Origin: an uncultured Flavobacteriaceae bacterium
GTDB lineage: Bacteria > Bacteroidota > Bacteroidia > Flavobacteriales > Flavobacteriaceae
DNA length: 64,000 bases
NCBI GenBank assembly: GCA_947494325.1
Contig: CANLUS010000001.1
Span: forward strand, 496,001 to 560,000
Direction of reading: 5' to 3'
In this document: piece after piece, positions 6,372 to 32,482 of the stretch
Position numbering within the stretch: the stretch's first letter is position 1
How the letters are laid out: each line of letters starts with the position of its first letter
Translations under genes and position numbers: made by a program
The notes under the pieces: generated by a model
The model's database searches: none
The model's input: only the letters and a program-made list of their open reading frames with translations
What the model was told of the DNA's origin: nothing

Positions 6372-6461
6372 AAAATAGGTCCTATTATAGCATGTTAATT
6401 TACTAAAAACCCCAGAATAATTTGTACTTTGGCAATCGAAATTTATCCTAAAAAAATATAT

Positions 6462-7064
6462 ATGCCTTTAGTAACACCATTAAATCCTGATCACGATACT
6501 GAAACCAAGCAATTGGCCGAGTTTTTCAATGAAACCTTGGGTTTTTGTCCAAATTCAGTATTAACTATGCAACACAGACCTGCTATTAGTAAAGCATTTA
6601 TCAATTTGAATAAAGCAGTGATGGCCAATGAAGGTCGTGTAACCTCTGCATTAAAACGTATGATCGCTTGGGTAAGTAGTAATTCGACTGGATGTCGATA
6701 CTGTCAAGCACATGCGATTCGTGCTGCAGAACGTTATGGTGCTGAGCAAGAACAGTTAGATAATATTTGGGAATATAGAACGCATCCCGCATTTAGTGAA
6801 GCAGAACGTGCCGCGCTTGACTTTTCTTTACAAGCATCCATGGTACCAAATAACGTTGACGCCGAGATAAAAAAGCGTTTATATGAGTACTGGAATGAAG
6901 GGGAAATTGTAGAAATGTTGGGCGTGATTTCCTTGTTTGGTTATCTAAATCGTTGGAACGATTCTATGGGGACCTCCATCGAAGAGGGTGCTGTAGAAAG
7001 CGGTGATCAATATTTAGGTAAACACGGCTGGAATAGCGGGAAACACAACGGATCGCAATATTAG
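6462..7064 (+). CDS. AhpD-like carboxymuconolactone decarboxylase family protein
   Basis: A peroxidase-related (AhpD/CMD superfamily) protein of about 200 residues. The redox motif TGCRYCQAHA gives the CxxC with the downstream His typical of AhpD-like disulfide reductases. I chose the ATG at 6462. An in-frame TTG at 6429 would add 11 residues and cannot be excluded, because TTG starts seem to be used elsewhere in this window. A strong hairpin terminator follows at 7087-7116. The likely role is thiol-dependent peroxide defence in the cytoplasm. Confidence 0.75.
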   Translation: MPLVTPLNPDHDTETKQLAEFFNETLGFCPNSVLTMQHRPAISKAFINLNKAVMANEGRVTSALKRMIAWVSSNSTGCRYCQAHAIRAAERYGAEQEQLDNIWEYRTHPAFSEAERAALDFSLQASMVPNNVDAEIKKRLYEYWNEGEIVEMLGVISLFGYLNRWNDSMGTSIEEGAVESGDQYLGKHGWNSGKHNGSQY

Positions 7065-7086
7065 GCTTTTATCTTTTAGAAATTGT

Positions 7087-7116
7087 AAGAAACCTTGCCA
7101 CTCGGCGAGGTTTCTT
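7087..7116 (+). terminator. Rho-independent terminator after the AhpD-like gene
   Basis: A 13-bp stem with one mismatch and a 4-base loop. The left arm is 7087-7099 and the right arm 7104-7116 (AAGAAACCTTGCC / GGCGAGGTTTCTT), followed by ATTTT. The right arm overlaps the stop codon of the convergent uracil-DNA glycosylase gene, so one structure may serve both directions. Confidence 0.75.
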
Positions 7117-7690
7117 ATTTTGAAAGAATTGAATCTATTGTTTCGCGAAATTTTGGAAGCACTTCTTGATCGAACCAAGGATTCTTAGTCAACCAAAAAC
7201 GATTTCGCGGAGATGGATGAGGTAGCACAAAATAATTAGGAAGGTAATTTTCATAATTTTTAACAGTTTCAGTTAAGGTTTTCTTCGCACTTTTTTTTAG
7301 GTAATACTGCTGCGCGTAAATTCCAATCAAAATAATCGACTTAACATTTGGCATTTTCGCTAATAGGGAGTCATGCCATAACGGAGCGCATTCTGGCCTT
7401 GGTGGAAGATCCCCCGATTTTCCCTTACCGGGATAGCAAAATCCCATAGGGACAATTGCAAATTTTTTGGCATCATAAAAATCTTCATCTGAAACGCCTA
7501 ACCATTTTCGTAATTGTTTGCCGCTTGCGTCATCCCATGGCACACCCGATGCATGAACTTTTGTACCTGGAGCTTGTCCGATGATAATTATTTTCGAATC
7601 TATATGCCCAGAGACAACTGGTCTCGGACCAAGATCTAAATGCTGTGCACAAACAGTACATTGTTTTATTTCTGATAATAGTTCTTTCAT
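7115..7690 (-). CDS. Uracil-DNA glycosylase family protein, probable Fe-S type
   Basis: A 191-residue UDG-superfamily protein. Motif 1 is GQAPG (residues 38-42) and the C-terminal motif is HPSPRN. Four cysteines stand out: Cys11 and Cys14 (C-x2-C), then Cys85 and Cys101 (C-x15-C). This is the ligand spacing of the [4Fe-4S] cluster in family 4 uracil-DNA glycosylases. It should remove uracil from DNA in base-excision repair. The gene starts immediately before rsmI on the same strand (stop of rsmI at 7691), consistent with an operon DoxX-rsmI-UDG. Confidence 0.8.
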   Translation of the reverse strand: MKELLSEIKQCTVCAQHLDLGPRPVVSGHIDSKIIIIGQAPGTKVHASGVPWDDASGKQLRKWLGVSDEDFYDAKKFAIVPMGFCYPGKGKSGDLPPRPECAPLWHDSLLAKMPNVKSIILIGIYAQQYYLKKSAKKTLTETVKNYENYLPNYFVLPHPSPRNRFWLTKNPWFDQEVLPKFRETIDSILSK

Positions 7691-8362
7691 CTATTTTTTC
7701 CCTTCTACAATGACCACAAATTCTCCTTTTGGTGGTTTATTTTCAAAATGAGATAGCACTTCCTTTACCGTACCTCGAACAGTTTCTTCATATAGTTTGG
7801 TAAGTTCCCGGGATACCGAAATTTTTCTTTCTTCTCCGAAATACTCTGCAAACTGCGTCAAAGTTTTCATCAATTTATGAGGTGATTCATAAAAAATCAT
7901 GGTGCGCGTTTCTTCTGCTAAAAAAATGAGTCTGGTTTGTCGTCCTTTTTTTACTGGCAAAAAACCTTCAAATACGAACTTATCATTTGGCAAACCGCTA
8001 TTCACCAAGGCCGGTACAAAAGCAGTAGCCCCCGGTAAACATTCAACATCAATGCCATTTTCTACACAAGCCCTTGTCAATAAGAATCCTGGATCAGAAA
8101 TCGCCGGCGTGCCAGCGTCAGAAATCAAAGCGATAGTTTCACCGGCCTGAATGCGCTTAACTATACTATCTACCATTTTATGCTCGTTATGCATATGATG
8201 ACTATGCATTTGCGTGCCAATCTCAAAATGTTTTAATAATTTTCCAGAGGTGCGCGTATCCTCTGCTAAGATCAAGTCTACTTCTCGCAATACTTTAATA
8301 GCACGGAGCGTAATATCTTCTAAATTACCAATCGGCGTAGGTACAATGTATAATTTACTCAT
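7691..8362 (-). CDS. rsmI: 16S rRNA (cytidine(1402)-2'-O)-methyltransferase RsmI
   Basis: A 223-residue tetrapyrrole-methylase-fold enzyme. The N terminus MSKLYIVPTPIGNLEDITLR is diagnostic, followed by LAEDTRTS, the SDAGTPAISDPG loop and LPGATAFVPALVNSGLP. RsmI methylates the ribose of C1402 in 16S rRNA, which tunes decoding fidelity. I place the start at the ATG at 8362, one base after the stop of the DoxX-like gene. An upstream in-frame ATG at 8401 would add 13 non-conserved residues inside that gene. Confidence 0.9.
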   Translation of the reverse strand: MSKLYIVPTPIGNLEDITLRAIKVLREVDLILAEDTRTSGKLLKHFEIGTQMHSHHMHNEHKMVDSIVKRIQAGETIALISDAGTPAISDPGFLLTRACVENGIDVECLPGATAFVPALVNSGLPNDKFVFEGFLPVKKGRQTRLIFLAEETRTMIFYESPHKLMKTLTQFAEYFGEERKISVSRELTKLYEETVRGTVKEVLSHFENKPPKGEFVVIVEGKK

Positions 8363-8363
8363 T

Positions 8364-8720
8364 TTACGGACGTACTTTCTTTCCTGAAGTATAGGAACCA
8401 ATTAATGCAAAAAAAGCAATAATAGAAAATAATGCACCTCCATCTTCGGCAACCATGTGCGCTGTAAAGGCCAATACAACATCAAAGAAAAAACCGGCAT
8501 ACGCCCACTCTTTTAACCATGTTACTTTATTCGAAAGAATGGTGATCACACCTAAAATTTTTGCAATTGCCAACGGAATTACAATATACGTTGGGTAATT
8601 AAAACTCTCAAAGAAGCCTTTGATCATTTCTGTGTTTATGAAATACATAGTCGCTGAATACAACATAATCGCACAAAGTATTCCAGTGGTAATCCAATAA
8701 ATTATTTTTTGTGTTTTCAT
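8364..8720 (-). CDS. DoxX-like membrane protein
   Basis: A 118-residue protein with four predicted transmembrane helices (about residues 8-27, 45-62, 70-88 and 95-112) and the DoxX_2-like pattern, including the KILGV segment in helix 2. Members of the DoxX superfamily are associated with quinone or thiol redox functions, but this small subgroup is uncharacterised. It is the first gene of a tight minus-strand run with rsmI (1-base gap) and the uracil-DNA glycosylase. Confidence 0.7.
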   Translation of the reverse strand: MKTQKIIYWITTGILCAIMLYSATMYFINTEMIKGFFESFNYPTYIVIPLAIAKILGVITILSNKVTWLKEWAYAGFFFDVVLAFTAHMVAEDGGALFSIIAFFALIGSYTSGKKVRP

Positions 8721-8803
8721 CCGCGTCTATTTTAATTGATAAAACCAAAAGTACAACCTTTTTAAATAGTTGAAAAATCATCTAAATATCTTTACTAAAT
8801 CAC

Positions 8804-8811
8804 TAAATTTG
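8804..8811 (+). promoter_or_regulatory. TAnnTTTG promoter element of aspS
   Basis: TAAATTTG, a perfect match to the Bacteroidota -7 consensus, 18 bases before the chosen aspS ATG. It lies downstream of an in-frame ATG at 8770, which argues against that longer start. Confidence 0.7.
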
Positions 8812-8829
8812 CGCATTAATTTTTGGAAG

Positions 8830-10584
8830 ATGTATAGAAGTCATACAAATGGTGAATTGCGATTAGCGCATGTTGGAAATGAAGTTAATTTATCTGGTTG
8901 GGTACAAAAAGTACGCGATAAAGGTTTTATGTTATGGATAGATCTGCGTGATCGTTACGGCATTACGCAACTAATCTTAGATGAAGAGCGCACTGATAAA
9001 ACACTTTTTGAAAAAGTAAAAACGCTAGGGCGTGAATTTGTAATTCAGGCAACTGGCACAGTCATTGAACGTCAATCAAAAAACAACAATATTCCAACAG
9101 GAGAAATTGAAGTCTTGGTTACAAAATTGACCATTTTAAATGCTGCTAAAACCCCTCCTTTTACCATCGAAGATGATACCGATGGTGGAGAAGAATTACG
9201 CATGCAATACCGTTATTTAGATATTCGTCGTAACCCAGTGAAAGAAAACTTAATCTTTCGCCATAAAGTGGCACAAGAAGTTCGAAATTACTTATCAAAT
9301 CAGGATTTTATCGAAGTAGAAACACCTTATTTGATTAAATCTACGCCAGAAGGTGCTCGTGATTTTGTAGTGCCTAGCCGAATGAATGAAGGGCAGTTTT
9401 ACGCCTTGCCACAATCTCCTCAAACCTTTAAACAATTGTTAATGGTAGGTGGAATGGACAAGTACTTTCAAATTGTAAAATGCTTTCGTGATGAAGATTT
9501 ACGGGCTGATAGACAACCTGAATTTACGCAGATAGACTGTGAAATGGCGTTTGTAGAACAAGAAGATATTTTGAATGCTTTCGAAGGTTTAACACGTCAT
9601 TTGCTACAAAAAATAAACAATATTTACGTGGCCGAGTTTCCGAGAATGACCTATGAAGAAGCCATGCGCACTTACGGAAATGACAAGCCAGATATCCGCT
9701 TCGGAATGAAGTTTGGTGAATTGAATGCTGTTGCTCAGCATAAAGAATTTAATGTCTTCAATCAGGCAGAACTCGTAGTAGGGATTGCCGTGCCCGGAGG
9801 AAATTCATATACAAGAAAAGATATAGATAAATTAATTGATTGGGTAAAACGTCCGCAAGTTGGTGCTCTTGGAATGGTGTATGCACGTTGTAACGAAGAT
9901 GGTAGTTTTAAATCTTCTGTAGATAAGTTTTATGATCAAGAAGATCTGGCAAATTGGGCAGAAGTTACTGGTGCCAAGCCAGGTGATTTGGTGTGTGTTC
10001 TTTCTGGAGATACCGCTAAAGTGAGAGCACAATTAAGTGCCTTGCGTATGGAACTAGCAGAACGCCTAGGTTTACGTAAACCGGATGAATTTGCACCATT
10101 GTGGGTGGTAGATTTCCCTTTATTAGAATGGGATGAAGAAACAGAACGTTTTCATGCCATGCATCACCCATTTACTTCTCCAAAACCAGAAGATATGCCT
10201 TTGTTAGATACCGATCCTGCTAAGGTTAGAGCGAACGCTTATGACCTAGTATTGAATGGTAACGAAATAGGTGGTGGCTCTATAAGAATTCATGACAAAG
10301 CAACTCAAGCCTTGATGTTCGACCATTTAGGGTTTACTCCAGAAGAGGCTAAAGCACAATTCGGATTCTTAATGAACGCCTTCGAATATGGGGCTCCACC
10401 ACACGGAGGTATTGCGTTTGGTTTAGACAGATTAGTGGCTATTTTGGGTGGTCAAGAAACGATTCGTGATTTTATTGCATTTCCTAAAAATAATTCAGGT
10501 CGCGATGTTATGATCGACGCTCCTGCGCTTATTGACGATGCCCAATTAACAGAATTAAGTTTAAAACTAAATCTAAAATCTTAA
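8830..10584 (+). CDS. aspS: Aspartate--tRNA ligase
   Basis: A bacterial-type class II aspartyl-tRNA synthetase of 584 residues from the ATG at 8830. In order it has an N-terminal OB fold binding the anticodon ([21 protein letters not shown]), the class II motif 1 region (IEVETPYL), motif 2 with [11 protein letters not shown] and [15 protein letters not shown], the bacterial GAD insertion domain at about residues 290-420, and motif 3 ([13 protein letters not shown]). It charges tRNA-Asp. The start is fixed by the promoter at 8804-8811 and by the family N terminus [10 protein letters not shown]. Whether it is discriminating cannot be judged by eye. Confidence 0.95.
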
Positions 10585-22704: not shown

Positions 22705-22790
22705 TTGAGTCTTGATATTTAAGCTTGTGCAAGGTACATTATTTTTCATTTTTGACCTGTTTACATTAAATTAATATTGCATGATTTTAG

Positions 22791-22812
22791 CTAACATTAA
22801 TCTAACCTAAAG
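22791..22812 (+). promoter_or_regulatory. Distal 11-bp direct repeat upstream of the receptor operon
   Basis: CTAACATTAAT followed immediately by CTAACCTAAAG, two 11-bp units sharing CTAAC. It resembles a PHO-box-like response-regulator site and lies about 80-100 bases before the ATG at 22895. It belongs to the same motif family as the other 11-bp elements in this locus. Confidence 0.45.
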
Positions 22813-22833
22813 ATTACAAATCAATAATCTGTA

Positions 22834-22868
22834 TTTAACGCAGTCTTTACATTGTCTCCCTTTCTTTG
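22834..22868 (+). promoter_or_regulatory. Proximal 11-bp repeat box plus -7 element
   Basis: Two 11-bp units (TTTAACGCAGT and CTTTACATTGT, 22834-22855), a 5-base spacer, then TTTCTTTG at 22861-22868, one mismatch from TAnnTTTG. The same geometry occurs before the porin gene. The box sits where a -33 element would be, so activator-dependent transcription is plausible. Confidence 0.45.
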
Positions 22869-22894
22869 CCACGTATTAAAAGCGAAATAATACC

Positions 22895-23254
22895 ATGAAA
22901 AAAAGTATTCTAATTTTTGTTTTACTCTTTAGCGGATTGATCCAAGCTCAAGATAATGGAATAATTGAAGGAATTGTTCTTGATAAACAAATGAATAACG
23001 AACCATTGGCGTTTGCGAATATCACCCTAAAAGAAGCTAAGTTAAATACTACGGCTAACATTGATGGGGCTTTCATATTCGAAATAAAGGAAGGCATATA
23101 TACATTAATATTTAATTTTCCTGGCTACCAAAAAGTGGAAATTAAAAATGTTACAGTATCGGCAGGAGAAATTACGTCGATTAAAGATGTGATTATCGCC
23201 GCTCGAAAATTACCATTCCTTGCCGAAAATTCTACCAAAACAGATAAAAAATAA
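22895..23254 (+). CDS. Stand-alone carboxypeptidase-like regulatory domain protein
   Basis: A 119-residue exported protein: signal peptide (1-18) followed by one CarboxypepD_reg-like beta-sandwich (GIIEGIVLDKQMNNEPLAFA ... GYQKVEIKN) and a Lys/Thr-rich tail. The domain is clearly paralogous to the N-terminal domain of the TonB-dependent receptor encoded 22 bases downstream (GTIQGKVLDKEASNESLPFA). It therefore looks like a duplicated receptor domain that lost its barrel, or a periplasmic partner. Translation ends normally with no sign of a frameshift into the receptor. The function is unknown. Confidence 0.7.
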   Translation: MKKSILIFVLLFSGLIQAQDNGIIEGIVLDKQMNNEPLAFANITLKEAKLNTTANIDGAFIFEIKEGIYTLIFNFPGYQKVEIKNVTVSAGEITSIKDVIIAARKLPFLAENSTKTDKK

Positions 23255-23276
23255 TACCTACCAACATTACATAAAT

Positions 23277-26006
23277 ATGAGAAATTTTTTAACCATTCTT
23301 TTACTGGGAGCTTCTACCATAATCATGGCTCAAAGTAAAGGTACAATTCAAGGAAAAGTGCTGGATAAAGAAGCCAGTAATGAATCCTTACCATTTGCAA
23401 ATGTTTTTATTAAAGGCTCTCAAACAGGTACAACCACCGATATGGATGGGATCTACACATTTAAGGCGAGTCCAGGAACCTATACGATCGTTTTTAGTTT
23501 TGTGGGATATCAGACTATTGAGGTGCCAAATATTTTGGTAAAAGAAGGTGAAGTAACCACCTTAGAGAATGTCATTCTTGGCGCTGCACAAGGCGTTGCT
23601 TTAAAAGAAGTCGTAGTGAAAGCTACAACCCAAAAAGAAAGTGTAAGTGCCTTATTAAGTGATCAGAAAAAAGCAGTTGAAATAAAAACGTCTATTGGCG
23701 CACAAGAATTGACCAACTTAGGAGTTTCTGATGCAGGTACTGCAGCTACTAAAATCTCTGGAATTACTCAGAGTGAAGGTTCTGGAGATGTATTTATTCG
23801 GGGCCTAGGTGATAGATACCTTTCAACCACTATGAATGGCCTTCCTATTCCTTCTGATAATGTAGATAAAAAAAATATTGATCTAAGTTTGTTTTCTACA
23901 AATGTGATCCAAAACATTGGTGTTACGAAAGCGTATAGCGTTGCGAATTATGCCGATCAATCTTCAGGAAGTGTTGATGTTGTTTCAAAAGAAGCAAAGG
24001 GCAAAAGTATTACCTTGGGTATCAATTTTGGAGCAAATACCAATGCCTTAGATGTTTCTGAATTTAAAAGAACGCAAAACTTAGATGATTTGTCTTTCGG
24101 ATTCTATTCTAGAAGCTTTACTACTCAAGATGGTATTACACAACAGAGTTGGAACACCAAATTACAAAGCGGATCCCCTTTAAACCTTGGAGGTTCAATT
24201 GCACTAAATTCAAAAATTAACATTTTTGGTAAACCATTGAGTGTTTTTGCAACTGCTTCTCATTCTAACACGTTTGAACATAGAATAGGTGAGTTTAGAA
24301 AATTTAGATCTAATGTATTGGATAATGAGTTTACCGATGCAGAGCAATTTAACGCTAAAACGAATACAACAGCACTAGTCAACTTATCATATCCTTTGAC
24401 GGATAACATTAAACTAAAATATAACTTTCTTGCCATTAATAAAAGTAACGATCAATTATATGAGTCTGGTAGAAATTTAGAAGGTTTTGTATTTGATCAA
24501 GACCCTTCAGAATTTCAAGCTTTTGTAAGAGATCAAAACACACAGGTTACACAATTATTCATAAATCAGTTTTTAAGTTCTATAAATATCAGTGAAAACA
24601 ACAAATTGGAGTTAGCGGTAGGTTATAATTTTGTTACTGCTGATGAGCCAAATAGAATAAGAAATGAAGTAAATACACTAAGTCCTGGAGTCGTTGAATT
24701 TTCGAACGTTGGTAATTTCCAACAACGTAAATCTATTCAGCAAATTGAAGATGAAGAGATCAATGCTTATATAAAGGATACTTGGACGCTTTCTGATAAA
24801 GATAGCACTGGGACCAAATTAAATCTAGGTATTAACTTTAGAAATAGACAGAGAAATTTAGAATCACAGTTTGTCGGACTGAGAGCAAGAGGTGTGCAAG
24901 TTGAATCTATTGATAATTTAACAACAGCGTTTACGCCAGCTGCATTTCCTGTACAATCGTTTAATTTTTTATTCTCAAGTTATGATGGTGAATTAAACAT
25001 CATTGCACCATTCGCTTCTATTGAACTTAAGTTCAACAAATTTAGTGCAAGCGTTGGTGGTCGATATGAAACTACAAGTCTCGATTTACCATTTTGGGAT
25101 GTTCCAAATTTCGTAGGAAGAACGGGAAGTTCGTTTACCGATTATAACAATTTTTTCCCAGCAATAAATCTTAAATATGCTTTGAACGAAAAAACAAACC
25201 TACGTTTGTCTGCATCTAAGACCATTACACTTCCTGAATTTAAAGAAATTGCTCCTTTTGAGTATAACGATCCGACAGGTAGGGTAACAGTAGGTAATCC
25301 AGATTTGATTGCATCTACAGATTATAACTTTGATTTAAAGTACGAATTCTTCCCTTCGGCTGGGCAACTAGTGTCAGTAGGCGTCTTTTATAAAAGTATC
25401 GAAGATCCCATCAATACAGCTTTAACGAGAGGTTCTTCTGGAAACTTCTCATATTTTAATACAGGAGAAAAGGCTACGGTTTTTGGTGTAGAAGTAGAAA
25501 CAAGATTAGATCTTATAAAACAGGAAGGAGGCGCCAATTTGAACCTTGTTTTCAATGCTGCCTATATGAGTCATAACCAAGATTTATTTGAGAATTTCCA
25601 ATATAAAAATATAACTGAATCAAATTTACAAGGTGCGTCTGATTTCATCACAAATGCTGGACTGACGTATACCAACGGAAAAGAAAACGAATTCATCGCT
25701 ACTATTTCTGGAAACTATGCCTCAGATAAAATTTTCTCATTAGGAAGTCCTGAAGATTTTACAAACAGTGCAACCTTATATAATGACGAAATCATAGAAA
25801 ATGGATTTACAACACTTGATTTACAATTAAGTAAAAAAATCAATAAGCACTTATCACTAAGACTATCTGGTAAAAACTTATTGGATCCAACAATTAGACA
25901 AACTCAAAAAATAAGAAACTTAAACACAGCGATTGAAACAAATGAAACTGTCTTGTCGTATAAGAAAGGGTTATTTTTCAATTTAGGTGTGAGATATACA
26001 TTTTAA
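23277..26006 (+). CDS. TonB-dependent outer-membrane receptor
   Basis: A 909-residue receptor from the ATG at 23277: signal peptide (1-18), CarboxypepD_reg domain (about 20-110), plug domain with AAGVALKEVVVKA-like TonB box region, VFIRGLGDRYLSTTMNGLPIPS and VANYADQSSGSVDV, then a 22-strand-type barrel ending in LGVRYTF with terminal Phe. The substrate is not determined. It is not followed by a SusD homologue; instead a beta-helix lipoprotein comes next. Its neighbours include a phosphate-type porin and a PiT permease, so a phosphate-containing ligand is a reasonable hypothesis. Confidence 0.88.
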   Translation: MRNFLTILLLGASTIIMAQSKGTIQGKVLDKEASNESLPFANVFIKGSQTGTTTDMDGIYTFKASPGTYTIVFSFVGYQTIEVPNILVKEGEVTTLENVILGAAQGVALKEVVVKATTQKESVSALLSDQKKAVEIKTSIGAQELTNLGVSDAGTAATKISGITQSEGSGDVFIRGLGDRYLSTTMNGLPIPSDNVDKKNIDLSLFSTNVIQNIGVTKAYSVANYADQSSGSVDVVSKEAKGKSITLGINFGANTNALDVSEFKRTQNLDDLSFGFYSRSFTTQDGITQQSWNTKLQSGSPLNLGGSIALNSKINIFGKPLSVFATASHSNTFEHRIGEFRKFRSNVLDNEFTDAEQFNAKTNTTALVNLSYPLTDNIKLKYNFLAINKSNDQLYESGRNLEGFVFDQDPSEFQAFVRDQNTQVTQLFINQFLSSINISENNKLELAVGYNFVTADEPNRIRNEVNTLSPGVVEFSNVGNFQQRKSIQQIEDEEINAYIKDTWTLSDKDSTGTKLNLGINFRNRQRNLESQFVGLRARGVQVESIDNLTTAFTPAAFPVQSFNFLFSSYDGELNIIAPFASIELKFNKFSASVGGRYETTSLDLPFWDVPNFVGRTGSSFTDYNNFFPAINLKYALNEKTNLRLSASKTITLPEFKEIAPFEYNDPTGRVTVGNPDLIASTDYNFDLKYEFFPSAGQLVSVGVFYKSIEDPINTALTRGSSGNFSYFNTGEKATVFGVEVETRLDLIKQEGGANLNLVFNAAYMSHNQDLFENFQYKNITESNLQGASDFITNAGLTYTNGKENEFIATISGNYASDKIFSLGSPEDFTNSATLYNDEIIENGFTTLDLQLSKKINKHLSLRLSGKNLLDPTIRQTQKIRNLNTAIETNETVLSYKKGLFFNLGVRYTF

Positions 26007-26051
26007 ACTAAATAATTATTAATCTTTTACAAATTCTATTTTAAAATTATC

Positions 26052-28025
26052 ATGAAAAACAAAATGATCAAATTTTCGAGTGCTATGTTTATGATAGCCG
26101 CTTCACTTTTTGTTACAAGCTGTAGCACCAGTGATGATGTGAACCCACCTGTGGTACCAACTGTAAGTGACGTCGTAGACAATATCAATAATGGAACATT
26201 AAATGGTAGTTTAAAATCAGAAGATGGAGCTATTCAATTGAATTCAAATACAACATATCAGTTAACAGGATCATTTATTGTTGAGGATGGAGCCGAAGTT
26301 ACCATTCCTGCAGGTACAAACATCGTTGCAACCGCTGGCGGTACTGATGTTTATTTTGCTGTGCTAAAAGGCGGTAAAGTAAATATTAATGGTACGAATA
26401 GTAGTCCTGTGATTATGACTTCAACGAGTGGTGAACCTGCTAGTTGGGGAGGATTAACAATATGTGGAGATGCTACTACAACAGCTGGTGTTGATGCGAC
26501 CGCAGAAGTAGGTGGTTTTATCTACGGAGGTTCAAATGATGCAGATGATTCAGGATCAATCACCAATTTAGTAATTAAAGGTACAGGTGCTCAGATTAAC
26601 TCTGAATCTCAATATAACGGTGTTTCTTTATATGCAGTAGGTTCTGGCACAACAATTGAAAACATTGCTGTTTTTAATGGTGCCGATGATGGTATTGAAT
26701 TTTTTGGAGGTACTGTATCTGCTAAAAATATTTATTTAGAAAATTTAGAAGATGATGCTATCGACTGGACAGAAGGTTGGAGCGGTACTGTTGAAAATTC
26801 TTACATCACCAATACCGAAGCTGGCTTTTCTACTGTAGTAGAAGCCGATAAGGATAATGCAAACCCTAAATTGATCAACATAACCGCTAAGTCGATTGTT
26901 GGTGGTACTGCTTTACAATTTAAAAAACAATCGGGAGCAACTATTACGAATTTATTTTTAGATGGTTATGACACAAACATTGACATGAAAGATGATGGTC
27001 CATTAGCTAATGTAATTATAGATGGTGCTGCGGCAACAGTAACAGATCCATACAATACTGGAACTCCAGTTGATATTTCTAGTTGGGGCTTTATTGATGG
27101 TGAAGTAACTAATGTAACAACCTTAAGTGGAGAAGTAACAGGAGATGTTACTTTAAGTGCTGGAAACACGTATAATTTAACAGGTTCTTATATCGTAAAA
27201 GATGGTGGTAAATTGACTATTGAAGCAGGCACTAAAATTATTGCTGACGCAAGAGGTACGGATGTTTACATAGCCGTATTAAAAGGAGCTGAAATAGATA
27301 TTCAAGGTACAGCAGCAAATCCTGTAGTCATGTCTTCAGGAGGTGCAAATCCAGGTGACTGGGGTGGTTTGACTATTTGTGGTAATGCTACCACTACCGC
27401 GGGAGTAGATGCAACTGCCGAAGTTGGTGGTTTCATTTATGGTGGAACTGACGATGCTGACAGTTCAGGTTCTATCAACTACCTTGTAATTAAAGGTACA
27501 GGTGCCCAGATAAATTCAGAATCACAATATAATGGCGTTTCTTTATATGCTGTTGGTTCTGGAACCACGATTGCAAATTTTGCTGTAATTAATGGTGCAG
27601 ATGATGGTGTTGAGTTCTTTGGAGGAACAGTTTCAGCTGAAAATGTGTACTTACAAGATACTGAAGACGATGCTGTTGATTGGACAGAAGGTTGGAGCGG
27701 TACAATGACGAATACTTACATTAAACATGACATTGAAGGCTTCTCTACTGCATTAGAAGCAGATAAAGATAATGCAAACCCTCAGTTAGTAAACCTAACA
27801 GCTATCTCTTCAACTGGAGGTATAGCATTACAGTTTAAAAAACAATCGGGTGCTACAATTACGAATCTATACTTAGAAGGTTACACAACGAACATTGACA
27901 TGAAAGATGATGGGCCATTAGCCAATGTAATCATTGATGGTGCAGCAGCTACATTAACCGATGCCTATGACAGTGGTACACAAGTTGATATTTCAACTTG
28001 GTCTTGGATCAACGCTGGTTTATAA
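26052..28025 (+). CDS. Tandemly duplicated beta-helix lipoprotein
   Basis: A 657-residue protein with a lipoprotein signal ending in VTSC (Cys at about residue 24). After a short linker it consists of two copies of a roughly 285-residue right-handed beta-helix-like unit, with a period of 305 residues (915 bases). Each copy carries TYxLTGSxIV, WGGLTICG, EVGGFIYGG, GADDGxEFFGG, DWTEGWSGT and ALQFKKQSGATITN. Repeated acidic turns (DADDSGS, DKDNANP) suggest calcium or ligand binding. It follows the receptor by 45 bases and probably forms an outer-membrane pair with it, in the place SusD usually occupies. I cannot assign a catalytic activity. Confidence 0.75.
   Translation: MKNKMIKFSSAMFMIAASLFVTSCSTSDDVNPPVVPTVSDVVDNINNGTLNGSLKSEDGAIQLNSNTTYQLTGSFIVEDGAEVTIPAGTNIVATAGGTDVYFAVLKGGKVNINGTNSSPVIMTSTSGEPASWGGLTICGDATTTAGVDATAEVGGFIYGGSNDADDSGSITNLVIKGTGAQINSESQYNGVSLYAVGSGTTIENIAVFNGADDGIEFFGGTVSAKNIYLENLEDDAIDWTEGWSGTVENSYITNTEAGFSTVVEADKDNANPKLINITAKSIVGGTALQFKKQSGATITNLFLDGYDTNIDMKDDGPLANVIIDGAAATVTDPYNTGTPVDISSWGFIDGEVTNVTTLSGEVTGDVTLSAGNTYNLTGSYIVKDGGKLTIEAGTKIIADARGTDVYIAVLKGAEIDIQGTAANPVVMSSGGANPGDWGGLTICGNATTTAGVDATAEVGGFIYGGTDDADSSGSINYLVIKGTGAQINSESQYNGVSLYAVGSGTTIANFAVINGADDGVEFFGGTVSAENVYLQDTEDDAVDWTEGWSGTMTNTYIKHDIEGFSTALEADKDNANPQLVNLTAISSTGGIALQFKKQSGATITNLYLEGYTTNIDMKDDGPLANVIIDGAAATLTDAYDSGTQVDISTWSWINAGL
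26253..27107 (+). repeat. Beta-helix unit, copy 1
   Basis: First copy of the internal duplication in the lipoprotein gene, from TYQLTG to the residues after VDISSWG. It matches copy 2 at an exact offset of 915 bases, for example GLTICG at 26451 versus 27366. Confidence 0.8.
27168..28022 (+). repeat. Beta-helix unit, copy 2
   Basis: Second copy, from TYNLTG to the C terminus (VDISTWSW). Stretches such as KGTGAQINSESQYNGVSLYA are identical in protein to copy 1 but differ at synonymous positions, so the duplication is not very recent or is maintained by selection. Confidence 0.8.
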
Positions 28026-28056
28026 AAATATAAGCAAGAAAAAAATTGAATTCACT

Positions 28057-28090
28057 AAAAAAGGCCCGCTGTTGAGCGGGCCTTTTTTTT
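28057..28090 (+). terminator. Bidirectional terminator after the lipoprotein gene
   Basis: Stem GGCCCGCT / AGCGGGCC with GTTG loop, flanked by six A on the left and eight T on the right. It lies between convergent genes and can serve both the receptor operon and the MORN-type gene. Confidence 0.85.
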
Positions 28091-28109
28091 ATGTGCTTAC
28101 CTATTTTAT

Positions 28110-28457
28110 CTAGTTAAATGCGATCGACGTATCTTCAAGTTTGGTAACTTTCACCGCTTTACCATTCACGTAGTTCACTTCTTTCACCCCATCGTCATTT
28201 TTAAACAACCATTTTCCTGTCTTAATACCGTTCACATAATTTCCAATAGATATTTTTTCCCCTTTATCGTTGAAATAAGTCCAAGTACCATGTAATTTTT
28301 TATCTTTAAAAAAACCGTGCTGTTCTAGTTGACCATCATCATTATAAATCGTAGCCTCCACTAAATCTCCTTTTTGTTCGTATTTTGTTTTATTATCATT
28401 TTGAGCATATGTAAAACCTACACTCAATATCATCAATATTACTACTATTCTTTTCAT
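28110..28457 (-). CDS. Secreted MORN-repeat (YwqK-like) protein
   Basis: A 115-residue exported protein with a signal peptide (1-18, FTYAQ). Three or more MORN/YwqK-type repeats follow: GQLEQHGFFKDKKLHGTWTY, GEKISIGNYVNGIKTGKWLF and GVKEVNYVNGKAVKV. Such proteins are often annotated as antitoxin-like, but nothing supports a toxin-antitoxin role here, and the signal peptide points to the periplasm. It is encoded opposite to its neighbours within the receptor-porin locus; a promoter-like TACTTTAG precedes it (minus strand, 28489-28496). Confidence 0.7.
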   Translation of the reverse strand: MKRIVVILMILSVGFTYAQNDNKTKYEQKGDLVEATIYNDDGQLEQHGFFKDKKLHGTWTYFNDKGEKISIGNYVNGIKTGKWLFKNDDGVKEVNYVNGKAVKVTKLEDTSIAFN

Positions 28458-28503
28458 ACTAATCCGTTTTTATTTCCTATTAACGAAACTAAAGTATTAA
28501 TTA

Positions 28504-28547
28504 TTTTACATTAAAGCAACAATTCGGTAACGTTAACTTAACATTGA
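28504..28547 (+). repeat. Four contiguous 11-bp units (PHO-box-like array)
   Basis: Reading in steps of 11 from 28504 gives TTTTACATTAA, AGCAACAATTC, GGTAACGTTAA and CTTAACATTGA. All four have AC at unit positions 5-6, and three keep at least 9 of 11 bases of GTTAACATTAA. The array lies in the 416-base gap between the MORN-type and porin genes. It could be the binding site of an OmpR/PhoB-type regulator. Confidence 0.5.
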
Positions 28548-28640
28548 GATTTTAACACATTGAAATTCAATAATTTGCTAATGTTAAGTTTTTAAATTTA
28601 ACATATTCTTCTTTTTAAAATAAACTATAATTAATAATTA

Positions 28641-28686
28641 CATAATGTTTTGTTTACATATAATGTGAGTAAATACAATACTTTTG
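28641..28686 (+). promoter_or_regulatory. Promoter of the putative small RNA
   Basis: TACTTTTG at 28679-28686 is a perfect TAnnTTTG. Upstream, degenerate 11-bp units (CATAATGTTTT at 28641, GTTTACATATA at 28652, ATGTGAGTAAA at 28663) run in register to a 5-base spacer. Only the middle unit is a good match (9 of 11). No gene starts downstream before the terminator at 28754-28782. Confidence 0.45.
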
Positions 28687-28691
28687 AAAGT

Positions 28692-28782
28692 TCTATAGAC
28701 AATCATTGTTTCAATAATCGTTTAGTTTTTGTCGACTAGATTTTGAAATATGCAGGCTACTTTGGCCAAGTAGCCTTTTTTT
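28692..28782 (+). ncRNA. Putative small RNA in the receptor-porin intergenic region
   Basis: A self-contained transcription unit of about 90 bases: perfect TAnnTTTG element at 28679-28686, then a strong terminator hairpin with T-run at 28754-28782, and no plausible protein gene between them. The gene to the left is on the other strand, so this terminator has no upstream coding gene to serve. The 5' end (28692) is estimated from the usual distance to the -7 element. Alternatively it is an attenuated leader of the porin gene, but that gene has its own promoter after the terminator. Confidence 0.4.
28754..28782 (+). terminator. Orphan Rho-independent terminator
   Basis: Perfect 9-bp stem AGGCTACTT / AAGTAGCCT with a 5-base loop, followed by seven T. 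It lies within an intergenic region with no coding gene upstream on the same strand. Confidence 0.8.
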
Positions 28783-28812
28783 ATGCCAATATTCATTTAA
28801 AAATAACTTTTT

Positions 28813-28847
28813 CGAAACTTTAAGTTAACATTAAAATTAGTTCTTTG
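28813..28847 (+). promoter_or_regulatory. 11-bp repeat box plus -7 element of the porin gene
   Basis: Units CGAAACTTTAA (28813-28823) and GTTAACATTAA (28824-28834), a 5-base spacer, then GTTCTTTG (28840-28847) as an imperfect -7 element, 26 bases before the ATG. The spacing is identical to that upstream of 22895. Confidence 0.5.
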
Positions 28848-28873
28848 CAGCGACAAAAACTAAACATGTTTAT

Positions 28874-30076
28874 ATGAAACTTAAAGTTACACTAGTAGCA
28901 GTCGCTATTTTAGTATTATTTTCTGCACATTCTCAAGAAACGAATGCTCCAAAATTTGGGAAAGGCCTTTTTAACCTTGTTGGTAAAGACAGTACTTGGA
29001 CCATGAAAATTGGAACTCGCATGCAATTTTTGGCTATCTCAAATTGGGAAAGTGAAGATGGCTCCTTAATAAATCCAGAACAAAATTTCTTAGTTCGACG
29101 TGCGCGTTTAAAATTTAACGGATTTGCCTTTAGCCCTAAATTGAAATATAAAATGGAGCTTGGTTTATCGAATAGAGATATTTCGGGAGCCTCAGAATTC
29201 AATCGTAATACTCCTCGATATATTTTGGACGCCGTTGTAATGTGGAATTTTTATCAAAATTTTGAATTATGGGCTGGTCAAACAAAATTACCTGGAAATA
29301 TTGAACGTGTAATTTCATCTGGAAATTTACAGCAAGTAGATCGTTCATTATTAAATAGCAGGTTTAATATTGATCGTGATATGGGGATTCAATTAAGGCA
29401 TCATTTTAATATTTCGGATAAATTTTTAGTTCGTGAAAAATTTGCCATTTCTCAGGGTGAAGGAAGAAATATCACTGAAGGTAATTTAGGAGGCCATCAA
29501 TATACGGCTCGTTTAGAGTTCTTACCATTTGGTAAATTTAAGAGTAAAGGAGATTATAGCGGGAGTGACTTAAAACGAGAAGAAAGTCCAAAACTAATGA
29601 TAGCTGCGACTTATGATCATAATAACAACGCCGTAAAAAACAGAAGTAATCAAGGTTCTTATATGACGAATGATGTTGGGTTTTATGAAACAAATATTAA
29701 TACGATCTTTGTAGATGCCATGTTCAAGTACAAAGGATTCTCATTAATGGCTGAGTATGCCGATAGAGATGCGAAAGATCCTTTCGCTAAAAATTCTGAT
29801 GGTAGTTTAACTGGTGATGAAGTGCAAGTAGGTACTGGTCTTAACTTGCAAGCTGGTTATTTACTCAATAGTAATTGGGAAATTTCGGGTCGATTTACCA
29901 ACATTGAGCTTGATCAAAATATTACCGGCAAAAATCCTGAAAATCAGTATACCTTTGGTCTTTCTAAGTATATAGCAGGTCATAAATTAAAAGTACAATC
30001 TGATATAAGTTACTTATCTTTAGATGGTAGTAACAACGAATTAATGTATAGATTACAATTTGATATACATTTTTAA
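28874..30076 (+). CDS. Phosphate-selective-type porin (Porin_O_P family)
   Basis: A 400-residue exported beta-barrel with a signal peptide (1-20, AHSQE). The family pattern is visible in FNLVGKDSTWTMKIGTRMQF, FLVRRARLKFNGFAFSPKLKYKMELGLSN, the WAGQTKLPGNIERV segment, and the C-terminal strand ending YRLQFDIHF. It matches OprO/OprP-type porins, which are specific for phosphate or polyphosphate in Pseudomonas; in Bacteroidota specificity is assumed. The PiT permease gene follows 73 bases downstream, which supports phosphate entry across the outer membrane. It has its own promoter with 11-bp repeat elements. Confidence 0.85.
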   Translation: MKLKVTLVAVAILVLFSAHSQETNAPKFGKGLFNLVGKDSTWTMKIGTRMQFLAISNWESEDGSLINPEQNFLVRRARLKFNGFAFSPKLKYKMELGLSNRDISGASEFNRNTPRYILDAVVMWNFYQNFELWAGQTKLPGNIERVISSGNLQQVDRSLLNSRFNIDRDMGIQLRHHFNISDKFLVREKFAISQGEGRNITEGNLGGHQYTARLEFLPFGKFKSKGDYSGSDLKREESPKLMIAATYDHNNNAVKNRSNQGSYMTNDVGFYETNINTIFVDAMFKYKGFSLMAEYADRDAKDPFAKNSDGSLTGDEVQVGTGLNLQAGYLLNSNWEISGRFTNIELDQNITGKNPENQYTFGLSKYIAGHKLKVQSDISYLSLDGSNNELMYRLQFDIHF

Positions 30077-30096
30077 TCCTTAAAACATAACAATTA

Positions 30097-30131
30097 GTTA
30101 ATATACGACTAAACTATAATTAACACTTTTG
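30097..30131 (+). promoter_or_regulatory. Promoter region of the PiT gene
   Basis: CACTTTTG at 30124-30131 is one mismatch from TAnnTTTG. With the same 5-base spacer, the two preceding 11-mers are GTTAATATACG and ACTAAACTATA, weak matches to the box (shared TAA at positions 3-5). It may indicate a promoter separate from that of the porin. Confidence 0.35.
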
Positions 30132-30149
30132 CAACACAAAATTTAGACA

Positions 30150-32411
30150 ATGGAAAATATTTACCTAATAATGATCATCGCGCTCGTAATTTTGGCGGCT
30201 GCAGATTTAGTAGTGGGTGTGAGTAATGATGCCGTTAACTTTTTAAATTCAGCAATTGGTTCAAAAGCAATTCCGTTTAGAACTATTATGATTGTTGCCA
30301 GTCTTGGTATTTTCGTTGGTGCCGTTTTTTCAAGTGGTATGATGGAAGTCGCTCGTAAGGGTATTTTCGTGCCTGGAGAATTCTATTTTAACGAAATCAT
30401 GATCATCTTTATGGCCGTCATGATTACCGATATACTATTATTAGATTTCTTCAATACCTTAGGAATGCCAACCTCAACTACAGTATCTATTGTGTTTGAA
30501 TTATTGGGAGCAGCGGTTGCTATGGCATTGATTAAAATTGGTGCGTCGGATACACAGTCCTTTGCTGATTTGACCACCTATATCAATACGGAAAAGGCAA
30601 TGCAAATTATTTCTGGAATTCTACTATCGGTAGTAATCGCATTTAGTGTTGGTGCGCTCGTACAATATGTGTCGAGACTTATCTTTTCTTTTCATTATGA
30701 GAAGAAAATTAAATATTTAGGAGCCTTATTTGGAGGTGGAGCCTTAACTGCCATTACCTATTTTATTTTCATGAAAGGTTTAAAAGGAACACCATATTAT
30801 AAAGATCTTAAAGGATTATTAGAAGGTAACGAAATTATGATTATTGCCATAAGTTTTGTGGTTTGGACCATTTTATCACAAATCTATATGGGTGTTTTAA
30901 AGAAGAACATCTTTATCCCTATTATTGCGATAGGTACTTTTGGATTGGCCTTAGCTTTCTCTGGAAATGACTTGGTTAACTTTATTGGTGTTCCTATGGC
31001 TGCTTGGCATTCATATGAAGCTTGGACAGCTTCAGGTGTCGACGCTTCTGCATTTTCAATGGGAGTGTTAGATAAGAAAGTGCCTACTGAACCGCTCCTG
31101 TTATTTATTGCAGGTGGAATTATGGTATTGACTTTATGGTTTTCTAAGAAGGCTCGTACAGTGGCAGATACTGAAATTGGTTTATCAAGACAGGGTGATG
31201 GTGCTGAAAAATTCCAACCAAATGCCTTATCTAGAGCCGTAGTTCGATTTACCATTATGATTTCGAAATATACGGCAGCAGTGCTACCTTCTTCAATAAA
31301 CGAGAAGATAAATAAGCAATTTGAGAAACCTGTAATTGCTTTATCGAAGGGTAAAATGCATGAATTACCTGCGTTTGATCAAGTTCGAGCTTCAGTAAAT
31401 TTAATGGTTGCTGGAGTATTAATTTCAATTGCAACTTCTATGAAGTTACCTTTGTCAACGACCTATGTAACCTTTATGGTAGCTATGGGTACTTCGTTAG
31501 CCGATAGAGCCTGGGGAAGTGAAAGTGCGGTATATCGTGTAGCTGGAGTATTGAATGTTATTGGAGGCTGGTTTGGTACTGCCATCATTGCATTTATCGC
31601 TGCTGGTACTATGGCATTACTTATTAATTTAGGTGGGCCAACCGCGATTGCTATATTGTTATTTATCGCTATTTTGTTGTTGGCGAGAAACTATATTAAA
31701 CATAAATCGAAAGCGAGTGAATTAAAGGCCGAAGATCGATTGGAAAAGTCAGAGAGCAATTCTATTCAAGGGGTTATTGAAGAAAGTGCTGATAATATTT
31801 CGAAATCTTTAAAAAGAGTTAGTAAGATTAATTCAGCGTCCATTAATGGCCTTGTAAATGAAGATCTAAAATCGCTTAAAAAGGCGAAGTCTACCGTTGC
31901 TAAGTTGGAAGCTGAAATAGACGATATCCAAAATAATATTTTCTATTTCATCAAAAACTTAGATGAATCATATGTTGGTGCAAGTAAATTATATATTGAT
32001 GTGATTGGTGATTTACAAGACATGGCGCAATCGTCAAGTTTTATTGCAAAGGCAAGTCATAAACATATCAATAATAATCATAAAGCGTTGAAGAAAAATC
32101 AAGCCGATGAGCTGAAAGAAATCAACGAAAAGTTGAATGCTTTATTCTCTAAAGTAAGAGGCATTTTTGACTCACGTTCATTTGATCAATTAGGTTCGTT
32201 ATTAGACGAGAAGCAACTATTATTGGATAAGGTAAGAGAGTATATTCAAATTCAGGTTGAACGCACAAGAACAACCGAATCTAGTCCGAAGAATACGACC
32301 TTATACTTTAGTCTATTATTAGAAACAAAAGATTTGATAAAGGCAAGTATGAGTTTATTAGAGGTCTATTCTCAGGAAGAATCTCAGCAGGATACTGTAT
32401 CAGATAAGTAA
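30150..32411 (+). CDS. Inorganic phosphate transporter (PiT) with C-terminal PhoU-like domain
   Basis: A 753-residue protein. The N-terminal part (about 1-520) is a PiT/PHO-4 permease: the repeated family motif appears as VGVSNDAVNFLNSAIGS near residue 23 and in the second half as MKLPLSTTYVTFMVAMGTSL. It contains roughly ten to twelve helices with a cytoplasmic loop near residues 340-410. Residues of about 530-745 form a soluble helical region with a coiled-coil character resembling PhoU/DUF47 domains. PiT moves phosphate across the inner membrane with cations; the PhoU-like tail may regulate it. It ends at a strong terminator. Confidence 0.88.
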   Translation: MENIYLIMIIALVILAAADLVVGVSNDAVNFLNSAIGSKAIPFRTIMIVASLGIFVGAVFSSGMMEVARKGIFVPGEFYFNEIMIIFMAVMITDILLLDFFNTLGMPTSTTVSIVFELLGAAVAMALIKIGASDTQSFADLTTYINTEKAMQIISGILLSVVIAFSVGALVQYVSRLIFSFHYEKKIKYLGALFGGGALTAITYFIFMKGLKGTPYYKDLKGLLEGNEIMIIAISFVVWTILSQIYMGVLKKNIFIPIIAIGTFGLALAFSGNDLVNFIGVPMAAWHSYEAWTASGVDASAFSMGVLDKKVPTEPLLLFIAGGIMVLTLWFSKKARTVADTEIGLSRQGDGAEKFQPNALSRAVVRFTIMISKYTAAVLPSSINEKINKQFEKPVIALSKGKMHELPAFDQVRASVNLMVAGVLISIATSMKLPLSTTYVTFMVAMGTSLADRAWGSESAVYRVAGVLNVIGGWFGTAIIAFIAAGTMALLINLGGPTAIAILLFIAILLLARNYIKHKSKASELKAEDRLEKSESNSIQGVIEESADNISKSLKRVSKINSASINGLVNEDLKSLKKAKSTVAKLEAEIDDIQNNIFYFIKNLDESYVGASKLYIDVIGDLQDMAQSSSFIAKASHKHINNNHKALKKNQADELKEINEKLNALFSKVRGIFDSRSFDQLGSLLDEKQLLLDKVREYIQIQVERTRTTESSPKNTTLYFSLLLETKDLIKASMSLLEVYSQEESQQDTVSDK

Positions 32412-32432
32412 TTGAGATAATACTGTCCAAAT

Positions 32433-32467
32433 AAAAAAGAGGCGCTTTAAAAGCGCCTCTTTTTTTT
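32433..32467 (+). terminator. Bidirectional terminator after the PiT gene
   Basis: Stem GAGGCGCTT / AAGCGCCTC (32439-32447 / 32451-32459) with a 3-base loop, flanked by six A and eight T. It lies between the convergent PiT and HEIGH-protease genes. Confidence 0.85.
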
Positions 32468-32482
32468 ATTCTTTATATCCAA

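Follow-up and report, generated by a model that had tools for sequence, protein, structure and literature searches.

A small RNA probably controlled by PhoB and predicted to repress a phosphate porin by base-pairing in Flavobacteriaceae

Introduction

The question addressed in this article is how a putative phosphate-uptake locus of an uncultured Flavobacteriaceae bacterium is regulated, and in particular what function may be served by a small RNA (sRNA) predicted to be encoded immediately before its porin gene. The locus lies in a stretch of 64,000 nucleotides, referred to here as the window (GenBank assembly GCA_947494325.1, contig CANLUS010000001.1, positions 496,001 to 560,000 of the forward strand), which has a G+C content of 35% and belongs to a genome of 3.64 Mb. 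Its genes comprise a dGTPase-like HD gene on the reverse strand, genes for a CarbopepD_reg protein, a TonB-dependent receptor and a secreted protein, a MORN-variant gene on the reverse strand, a Porin_O_P porin and a PHO4-type PiT transporter. Based on sequence comparison, which covered repeat phase, RNA structure, complementarity, co-variation and conservation, it is considered likely that the sRNA is controlled by PhoB and represses the phosphate porin by base-pairing, within a phosphate-uptake regulon unit.

Complementarity between the small RNA and the porin leader

The features on which this interpretation depends are given below in window coordinates; the -7 boxes and the transcription start (+1) were placed with the TAnnTTTG consensus at -12 to -5 (PMC9723704, in part).

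28653 to 28670, + strand: weak repeat pair of the sRNA promoter
28679 to 28686, + strand: -7 octamer TACTTTTG of the sRNA
28691 to 28782, + strand: predicted sRNA of about 92 nt, without a match in Rfam
28720 to 28734, + strand: 15-nt pairing core GTTTAGTTTTTGTCG of the sRNA
28754 to 28782, + strand: intrinsic terminator of the sRNA
28814 to 28831, + strand: repeat pair of the porin promoter
28840 to 28847, + strand: -7 octamer GTTCTTTG of the porin
28851 to 28865, + strand: porin leader CGACAAAAACTAAAC, complement of the sRNA core; predicted +1 at 28852, with the predicted 5' end of the mRNA at GACAAAAAC
28874 to 30076, + strand: porin, Pfam Porin_O_P

Within the window, 15 bases of the sRNA (28720-28734) are complementary to the porin leader (28851-28865), and the sequence CGACAAAAACTA occurs exactly at only two places in the whole 3.64-Mb genome, namely the sRNA and the porin. 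Among relatives, 119 pairs of sRNA and target were collected, in 112 of which the downstream gene matches the window porin; the target stands before other Porin_O_P porins in L022 and L004 and before a gene without a Pfam match in L228. The G of the target GAC falls on the predicted +1 in 81 and on +2 in 21 out of 102 distinct pairs, and the distance from GAC to the start codon is 17-26 nt in 101 of 112. The base before GAC also pairs in 83%, and pairing amounts to 13-25% at -2 to -5; the values at -6 and -7 (41% and 76%) are similar to those of swapped pairs.

The two partners also co-vary outside the core. Contiguous pairing in the flanks is 3.70, as opposed to 2.76 +/- 0.11 in shuffled combinations, with 0 of 5000 shuffles at this level (119 pairs, 87 distinct; an earlier set held 44 distinct combinations). 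On a porin tree of 112 sequences, parsimony counts 13 branch events, at +4 and +9 to +13, where a change in one partner was accompanied by a change in the other that preserved the Watson-Crick pair. Examples are U-A to A-U (L031, Lutibacter agarilyticus) for +4, and A-U to C-G (L016) or A-U to G-C (L028, L260) for +10. Conserved complementarity accompanied by compensatory changes, the mark of a trans-acting base-pairing sRNA, is therefore found here.

A second target is possible in relatives: in 6 of 31 loci (L010, L039, L054, L059, L062 and L071), the leader of the receptor operon carries a stretch of 10-12 nt (for instance ACAAAAACTAATG) that is complementary to the sRNA core and extends into the start codon. 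Complements of at least 10 nt occur at 12 of 678 other gene starts, three of the 12 being the same receptor genes. This may be taken as a lead concerning those relatives, with no claim for the window's own genome. Start-codon pairing by a TTTCA stretch of the sRNA was also seen and was too inconsistent to be claimed.

Structure and separateness of the small RNA

An sRNA gene between the MORN gene and the porin, with the core TTAGTTTTTGTCGACTA and a terminator, is common to relatives. In the window, the transcript is predicted to extend from 28691 to about 28782, as judged from a -7 box at -12 to -5; its own fold has a z score of -2.9, and the terminator is detected. In an alignment of 52 sequences (A1; without exact duplicates, L078 and L079, and with the second L022 copy added), RNAalifold recovered the terminator only, and all 10 pairs predicted for its helix carry compensatory changes. 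The first stem was examined by exchanging its arms between genomes, which gave -8.4 kcal/mol in the own genome and -5.3 +/- 0.2 after permutation (0 of 300; 101 distinct arm pairs). The core lies in a six-base loop inside a longer stem in 15 of 16 listed folds (UUUGUC, or UUAGUC in L031), L010 folding differently; the loop of the window's sRNA holds UUUGUC.

Membership of a known Rfam family was rejected for lack of a covariance-model match: Rfam gave none at 28690-28790 up to an E value of 1, and none at the gathering cut-off in L010, L024 and L043. A cis-antisense RNA was likewise rejected, as the sRNA lies on the same strand as its target, 128 bp upstream. Across 108 distinct sequences, the longest reading frames in the sRNA are of widely varying length; of the 12 listed, most have different sequences.

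The sRNA mostly lies 110-150 bp before the porin, in tandem, and such an element could in principle be the leader of the porin mRNA, that is, part of a read-through transcript with attenuation, the more so if weak terminators permitted read-through. Sequence signals expected of a separate transcript are present, namely in-phase promoter boxes of its own and a covarying terminator. A T-run follows the hairpin region in 118 of 119 sRNAs, the porin retains its own conserved promoter downstream of the terminator, and about 3 kb separate sRNA and porin, with the match kept, in L052, L079 (Altibacter), G302, G078 and G359. In L052 and L079, genes on the other strand intervene (carbonic-anhydrase and sulfate-permease types in L052). 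The read-through explanation is consequently regarded as very unlikely.

The same separated partners bear on a further explanation, according to which no RNA pairing takes place and the core and leader, which form inverted repeats about 128 bp apart, serve as inverted sites at which a DNA-binding protein forms a loop, or make up a neutral inverted repeat whose copies template switching keeps alike. Template switching may indeed occur here, since the sRNA core of L078 is overwritten by an inverted copy of about 34 bp of the porin -7/leader region, and four loci have the leader with no detected sRNA. Such origins would leave unaccounted for the covarying flanking stem and terminator, the sRNA's own promoter with in-phase boxes, the low pairing (13-25%) at -2 to -5, and the match maintained with partners at least 3 kb apart. 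Since separated partners keep their complementarity, adjacency is not required for the conserved match. In Urechidicola croceus (L064, L334), sRNA and porin would be about 15 kb apart, provided that contig C5 corresponds to the L064 record, and in G238 the matching leader is on another contig, before a Porin_O_P gene. In addition, Lutibacter sp. NORP71 (L022) has two sRNAs, each co-adapted to its own target. One has TATTAG, the counterpart of CTAATA ahead of a Porin_O_P gene. The other has TATTCG, the counterpart of CGAATA, where the A-run is one base shorter; this second target lies 137 nt ahead of PiT, and a short open frame intervenes. An explanation by DNA sites or a neutral repeat thus appears highly improbable, and an RNA that pairs with the porin mRNA is preferred.

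Direct repeats shared by the promoters

Whether one regulator serves the whole locus depends on the 11-bp repeats that precede its promoters. The further features involved are as follows.

22790 to 22855, + strand: 11-bp repeat array of the receptor operon, with six register positions, the fourth poor
22861 to 22868, + strand: -7 octamer TTTCTTTG of the receptor operon
22895 to 28025, + strand: receptor operon (open reading frames and Pfam)
22895 to 23254, + strand: small CarbopepD_reg protein (Pfam), first gene of this operon
23277 to 26006, + strand: TonB-dependent receptor (Pfam), second gene
26052 to 28025, + strand: secreted protein without a Pfam match, third gene
28110 to 28457, - strand: MORN-variant secreted protein gene (MORN_2 at 26.6 bits, slightly under the cut-off)
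28489 to 28496, - strand: -7-like octamer TACTTTAG for the MORN gene, separated from the array by 8 bases, read from the sequence
28504 to 28547, + strand: array of four 11-bp units, in reverse orientation with respect to the MORN gene
30087 to 30131, + strand: PiT promoter with three in-register units and CACTTTTG
30150 to 32411, + strand: PiT-type phosphate transporter, Pfam PHO4

A first reading of this DNA, made from the sequence only, had reported paired 11-bp units ending exactly 5 bases before a TTTG-type octamer at two promoters, and both were recovered: units at 22834 (TTTAACGCAGT) and 22845 (CTTTACATTGT) precede TTTCTTTG of the receptor operon, and units at 28813 (CGAAACTTTAA) and 28824 (GTTAACATTAA) precede the octamer of the porin. 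The weaker units that it placed in the same register before the sRNA candidate and the PiT gene are also present, weak in sequence and shared in register (TTTACAT-N4-TGTGAGT-N8-TACTTTTG and ATAACAA-N4-TTAATAT-N4-CTAAACT-N8-CACTTTTG). Its clean four-unit array at 28504-28547 exists, with AC at positions 5-6 in all four units, and is less clean than described, as unit 2 (AGCAACAATTC) is poor. Its further pair at 22791 likewise exists, one base off, the in-register start being 22790, which lies 44 bp (4 x 11) before 22834. A + strand promoter right after the array at 28504 was judged by eye to be absent, TTTG not being at the expected place.

Relatives provide the stronger evidence. With PiT as query, 80 relative loci were retrieved, and 56 porin promoters (the window and 55 loci, with 29 distinct boxes) gave the consensus GAAACAT-N4-TTAACAT, followed by 8 bases and a GTT[CA]TTTG-type octamer; among 119 porin-type promoters, training rows included, 104 have 8 bases as the best spacing between the second heptamer and the octamer. 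For the remaining promoter classes, a heptamer matrix trained on porin promoters only was scored at every spacing before the -7 boxes. The start positions of porin, PiT and MORN genes came from tblastn and are approximate, and the test of sRNA promoters drew on the 91 of 119 with TTTG within the expected range. The top spacings were 30, 41 and 19 for the sRNA, 19 and 30 for PiT, 63, 19, 8 and 52 for the receptor operon, and 41, 30, 8 and 19 for the MORN gene in reverse orientation, all of them 8 mod 11. With sequences more than 80% identical removed, phase 8 outscored the other ten phases in all four classes, and none of the 5000 phase shuffles made per class was as high: sRNA (n=77, z 15), PiT (n=36, z 9), receptor operon (n=18, z 11) and MORN reversed (n=32, z 9). 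When the MORN repeats were read in the forward orientation, the best phase was 0, not 8.

An 18-mer matrix compared with 637 other gene starts placed 59% of 34 receptor operons, 64% of 81 PiT promoters and 98% of 51 MORN arrays above the 95th percentile; it was weak on sRNA promoters and was replaced there by the phase test. The comparison of intergenic regions among relatives that had been proposed in the sequence-only reading has thus borne out its repeats, the phase being kept in five promoter classes and the 8-base spacing in 104 of 119 porin-type promoters. As in a PHO box, at least two direct 11-bp units stand at a fixed position relative to the core promoter. In Winogradskyella (L045, L049 and L069), the porin promoter was observed to be without the proximal unit, with the -7 box, leader match and sRNA all retained.

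Identity of the regulator

Because phase 8 mod 11 is common to the porin, sRNA, PiT, receptor and MORN promoters, the earlier proposal that one regulator with an 11-bp direct-repeat site controls the whole locus is well supported. It had its limits, in that the MORN repeats are reversed and the complementarity of the sRNA candidate to the porin leader was missed. Such a regulator probably acts on the whole locus and is most likely PhoB. PhoB is suggested by the gene content together with the published form of the PHO box, in which tandem 11-nt units consist of seven conserved and four less conserved bases (PMC4415409, in part).

The genome encodes seven Trans_reg_C (OmpR-type) proteins, all of which were scanned, and the protein at C1:697671 is the only one of the seven with PhoB as its top NCBIfam match; the phoBR-like pair sits elsewhere in the genome, away from the locus. 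Another OmpR-family regulator could bind the repeats in response to a signal other than phosphate, an alternative that would draw on the existence of seven such proteins, on the lack of other pho genes shown with the repeat site, and on the score of the PhoB-like protein, which lies under the PhoB cut-offs and is equalled on the same model by a protein of L181 whose top match is MtrA (212.4 vs 211.6 bits). On the other side, direct repeats of the 7+4 type have the published PHO-box form, and the locus has phosphate-type genes in PiT and Porin_O_P. Upstream of the PhoB-like gene (L178 4931-4948; own genome C1:698430) there are also three such units (ACAACAT, TTAACAT and TTTACAG), reversed and, by hand count, out of the 8-mod-11 phase to a -7-like box.

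The window receptor, moreover, resembles one induced by low inorganic phosphate (Pi). In the PhoBR operon of Flavobacterium johnsoniae, the receptor and the next gene, encoding a lipoprotein, change by 8.02 and 9.91 in low Pi, read as log2 values (PMC8115612, in part). This receptor has the same Pfam domains as that of the window, a likeness judged by domains. A different OmpR-family regulator is on this evidence unlikely.

Proposed mechanism

In the proposed mechanism, the locus would form a phosphate-uptake regulon unit in which a PhoB-type response regulator binds the in-register 11-bp direct repeats, whose helical phase relative to the -7 boxes is constant, at the promoters of the receptor operon, porin, PiT and sRNA and, in reversed orientation, of the MORN gene. 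The sRNA would act as a terminator-ended base-pairing regulator. The core in its hairpin loop would pair with roughly 14 nt at the very start of the porin mRNA, whose leader of about 20 nt leaves them just ahead of the start codon, and would most likely block porin translation. Because both promoters would then be activated by PhoB while the sRNA represses, placing the porin and the sRNA under one regulator would create an incoherent feed-forward loop, restraining porin synthesis or setting its timing. In this scheme, PhoB as the regulator, the transcription, the binding and the sign of the effect are inferred.

Repression is preferred because pairing at the first bases of such a short leader should hinder ribosome loading, given that initiation in this family relies on signals other than Shine-Dalgarno (PMC9723704, in part). 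The same pairing, which starts no more than one base from the predicted 5' end, might conversely shield the terminus from decay or open the leader, in which case the sRNA would activate, and sRNA and porin would act in the same direction in low phosphate; with promoters that share a box type, a coherent loop would be as natural as an incoherent one. The pairing ends near the start codon, however, as follows from the distance between GAC and start noted above, and the receptor-operon complement of some relatives enters the start codon, which fits repression better. Activation is therefore judged rather improbable, protection of the 5' end being the main alternative, and repression of the porin is retained as the likely outcome.

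Several observations weigh against this mechanism or its parts. Concerning the pairing, the permutations take no account of phylogeny, and the pairs were collected with patterns fixing both cores, so that pairing at +1 to +7 arises partly by construction and is not independent evidence; the same porin tree also contains 50 one-sided branch events from Watson-Crick pairs to mismatches at +9 to +13, and about half of the core is paired in the sRNA's own fold. Concerning distribution, the window's genus gives a match only at E 7e-5 in G119 and none in G314. The link between sRNA and porin is also not strict: nine porin loci have no adjacent sRNA (L007, L017, L019, L026, L048, L064, L072, L073 and L080), and a convincing copy elsewhere was found only in the genome of L064; L019, L026, L073 and L080 keep a GACAAAA-type leader with the sRNA undetected. 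Such a leader is lost in L007, L017 and L048 and kept in part in L072.

Concerning the repeats, only 7% of 56 sRNA promoters exceed the 95th percentile of other gene starts with the 18-mer matrix, and scans of the own genome allowing at most one mismatch stayed at the level of controls: TTWACATN4TTWACAT gave 32 matches vs 33 for the reversed pattern, TWACATTN8TTMTTTG 38 vs 35, and a box pair with TTTG 22 vs 35. The genome-wide clustering of sites before pst and pho genes that the sequence-only reading had anticipated did not appear, and delimiting the regulon by such scans was accordingly rejected as support. Exact matches to TWACATTN8TTMTTTG are confined in this genome to the receptor and porin promoters, from which the pattern was derived. 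Concerning PhoB, the 211.6 bits of the C1:697671 protein fall under the curated cut-off of 296.2, and OprP of F. johnsoniae, a putative counterpart of the window porin, shows no Pi induction (-1.3, p 0.25; PMC8115612, in part).

The sole exact match of the own genome to TTWACATN4TTWACAT is found at C4:191976-192080, where a divergent TTTACAT-type repeat pair lies between a YceI-like gene (by reading) and the gene of a Trans_reg_C-domain protein.

Comparison with known systems

MicF-type RNAs of enterobacteria are small, end in a terminator, pair with a porin leader near the start codon and are encoded near a porin, so that base-pairing control of porins is already known in kind from MicF and others. 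The window sRNA shares the terminator, the predicted pairing near the start codon and the location beside a porin; it differs in having no Rfam match, in pairing at the extreme 5' end, in its tandem position with its own target and in its PHO-type promoter. In Bacteroides, antisense RNAs such as DonS lie antisense to receptor genes of polysaccharide utilization loci. Like them, the window sRNA is a Bacteroidota RNA predicted to regulate an outer-membrane transporter gene of its own locus, whereas it is a separate, same-strand RNA with a loop core.

The repeats resemble the PHO box of Escherichia coli PhoB and its relatives in consisting of tandem 11-nt units over the -33/-35 region, with the heptamer TTAACAT instead of CTGTCAT, a tie by an 8-base spacer to a TAnnTTTG-type -7 box, and one promoter reversed. 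Among Bacteroidota, PhoB of Bacteroides fragilis was found by electrophoretic mobility shift assay to bind a pst promoter (PMC3547664, in part); in contrast to the pst genes there, a search of the window's genome gave no PstS-type protein over the cut-off. The PhoBR operon of F. johnsoniae (Fjoh_0541-0549) likewise brings together a Porin_O_P gene, a TonB receptor and a lipoprotein gene, the last two strongly induced by Pi limitation, although OprP is not induced there (PMC8115612, in part) and the phoBR-like pair of the window's genome lies apart from the locus. The term 'sRNA' has no occurrence in the main text of PMC8115612. Among the titles and abstracts that searches of the open PubMed Central literature brought up, none describes a PHO-box consensus or a phosphate-porin sRNA in Flavobacteriaceae, and the same searches showed neither the sRNA family nor its connection with a PHO-type box in Flavobacteriaceae nor pairing at the 5' terminus.

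If the proposal is correct, it would provide the Flavobacteriaceae, which are abundant marine bacteria, with a concrete PHO-box rule, in which TTAACAT-type 11-bp units precede a TAnnTTTG-type box by 8+11n bases, together with a widespread RNA of this family with a target predicted to the base. Few RNA regulators are known in this group, and post-transcriptional control of its phosphate entry would become testable, with natural compensatory variants as ready-made pairing tests.

Distribution and rearrangements in the family

A covariance model (R1) detects the sRNA in 243 of 397 family genomes and 174 of 237 genera at E <=0.01, the weak end of which will include chance matches; in a sample of the class at E <=1e-5, it was found in 4 of 395 genomes, all four Flavobacteriaceae. 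A further 75 loci were selected manually, for the most part among the weaker of the R1 matches listed (E up to 1.5e-8), and 12 of them had no target by pattern within 2.5 kb. Among these 12, a target failing the pattern was recognized by eye in L223, L233, L278 and L281, targets lie about 3 kb away in L253, L256 and L262 and on another contig in L232, and L277 stops at a contig end; none was found for L266, L268 and L272. A search for the sRNA in 14 chosen genomes gave 4 with a match at E <=0.001, namely L038, which has the sRNA anyway, L334, which has the core, and L335 and L336, without the core by pattern.

These data raise the broader proposal, for which the chances are evenly balanced, that the arrangement is a portable two-part module made up of a PHO-box promoter, a loop-core RNA and a terminator, followed by a PHO-box promoter and a target-start mRNA. 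Such a module, built on a family-wide and previously unnamed RNA, would set outer-membrane phosphate permeability in marine flavobacteria. It would have been reattached to PiT in L053 (where sRNA and target lie 98 nt before PiT and the locus has no porin match) and to a different Porin_O_P gene in L004, duplicated into two co-adapted pairs in L022, and sometimes re-seeded by inverted copying of the target, as in L078; in some lineages, it may have recruited the receptor operon.

The overwriting of the sRNA core by an inverted copy of the porin -7/leader (about 34 bp, counted by eye) was seen in L078 at 156-330 and in G122 on contig C107 (L293, L302); in G122, a normal sRNA is present as well, on contig C108, with no target close by. 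In the window, terminator-like hairpins with T-runs follow the receptor operon (28055-28090) and PiT (32430-32475), both with weak, sub-threshold Rfam matches only. In L022, a pst-phoU set (PBP_like_2, two BPD_transp_1, ABC_tran and PhoU) occupies 5389-9582, between the two sRNA-target pairs.

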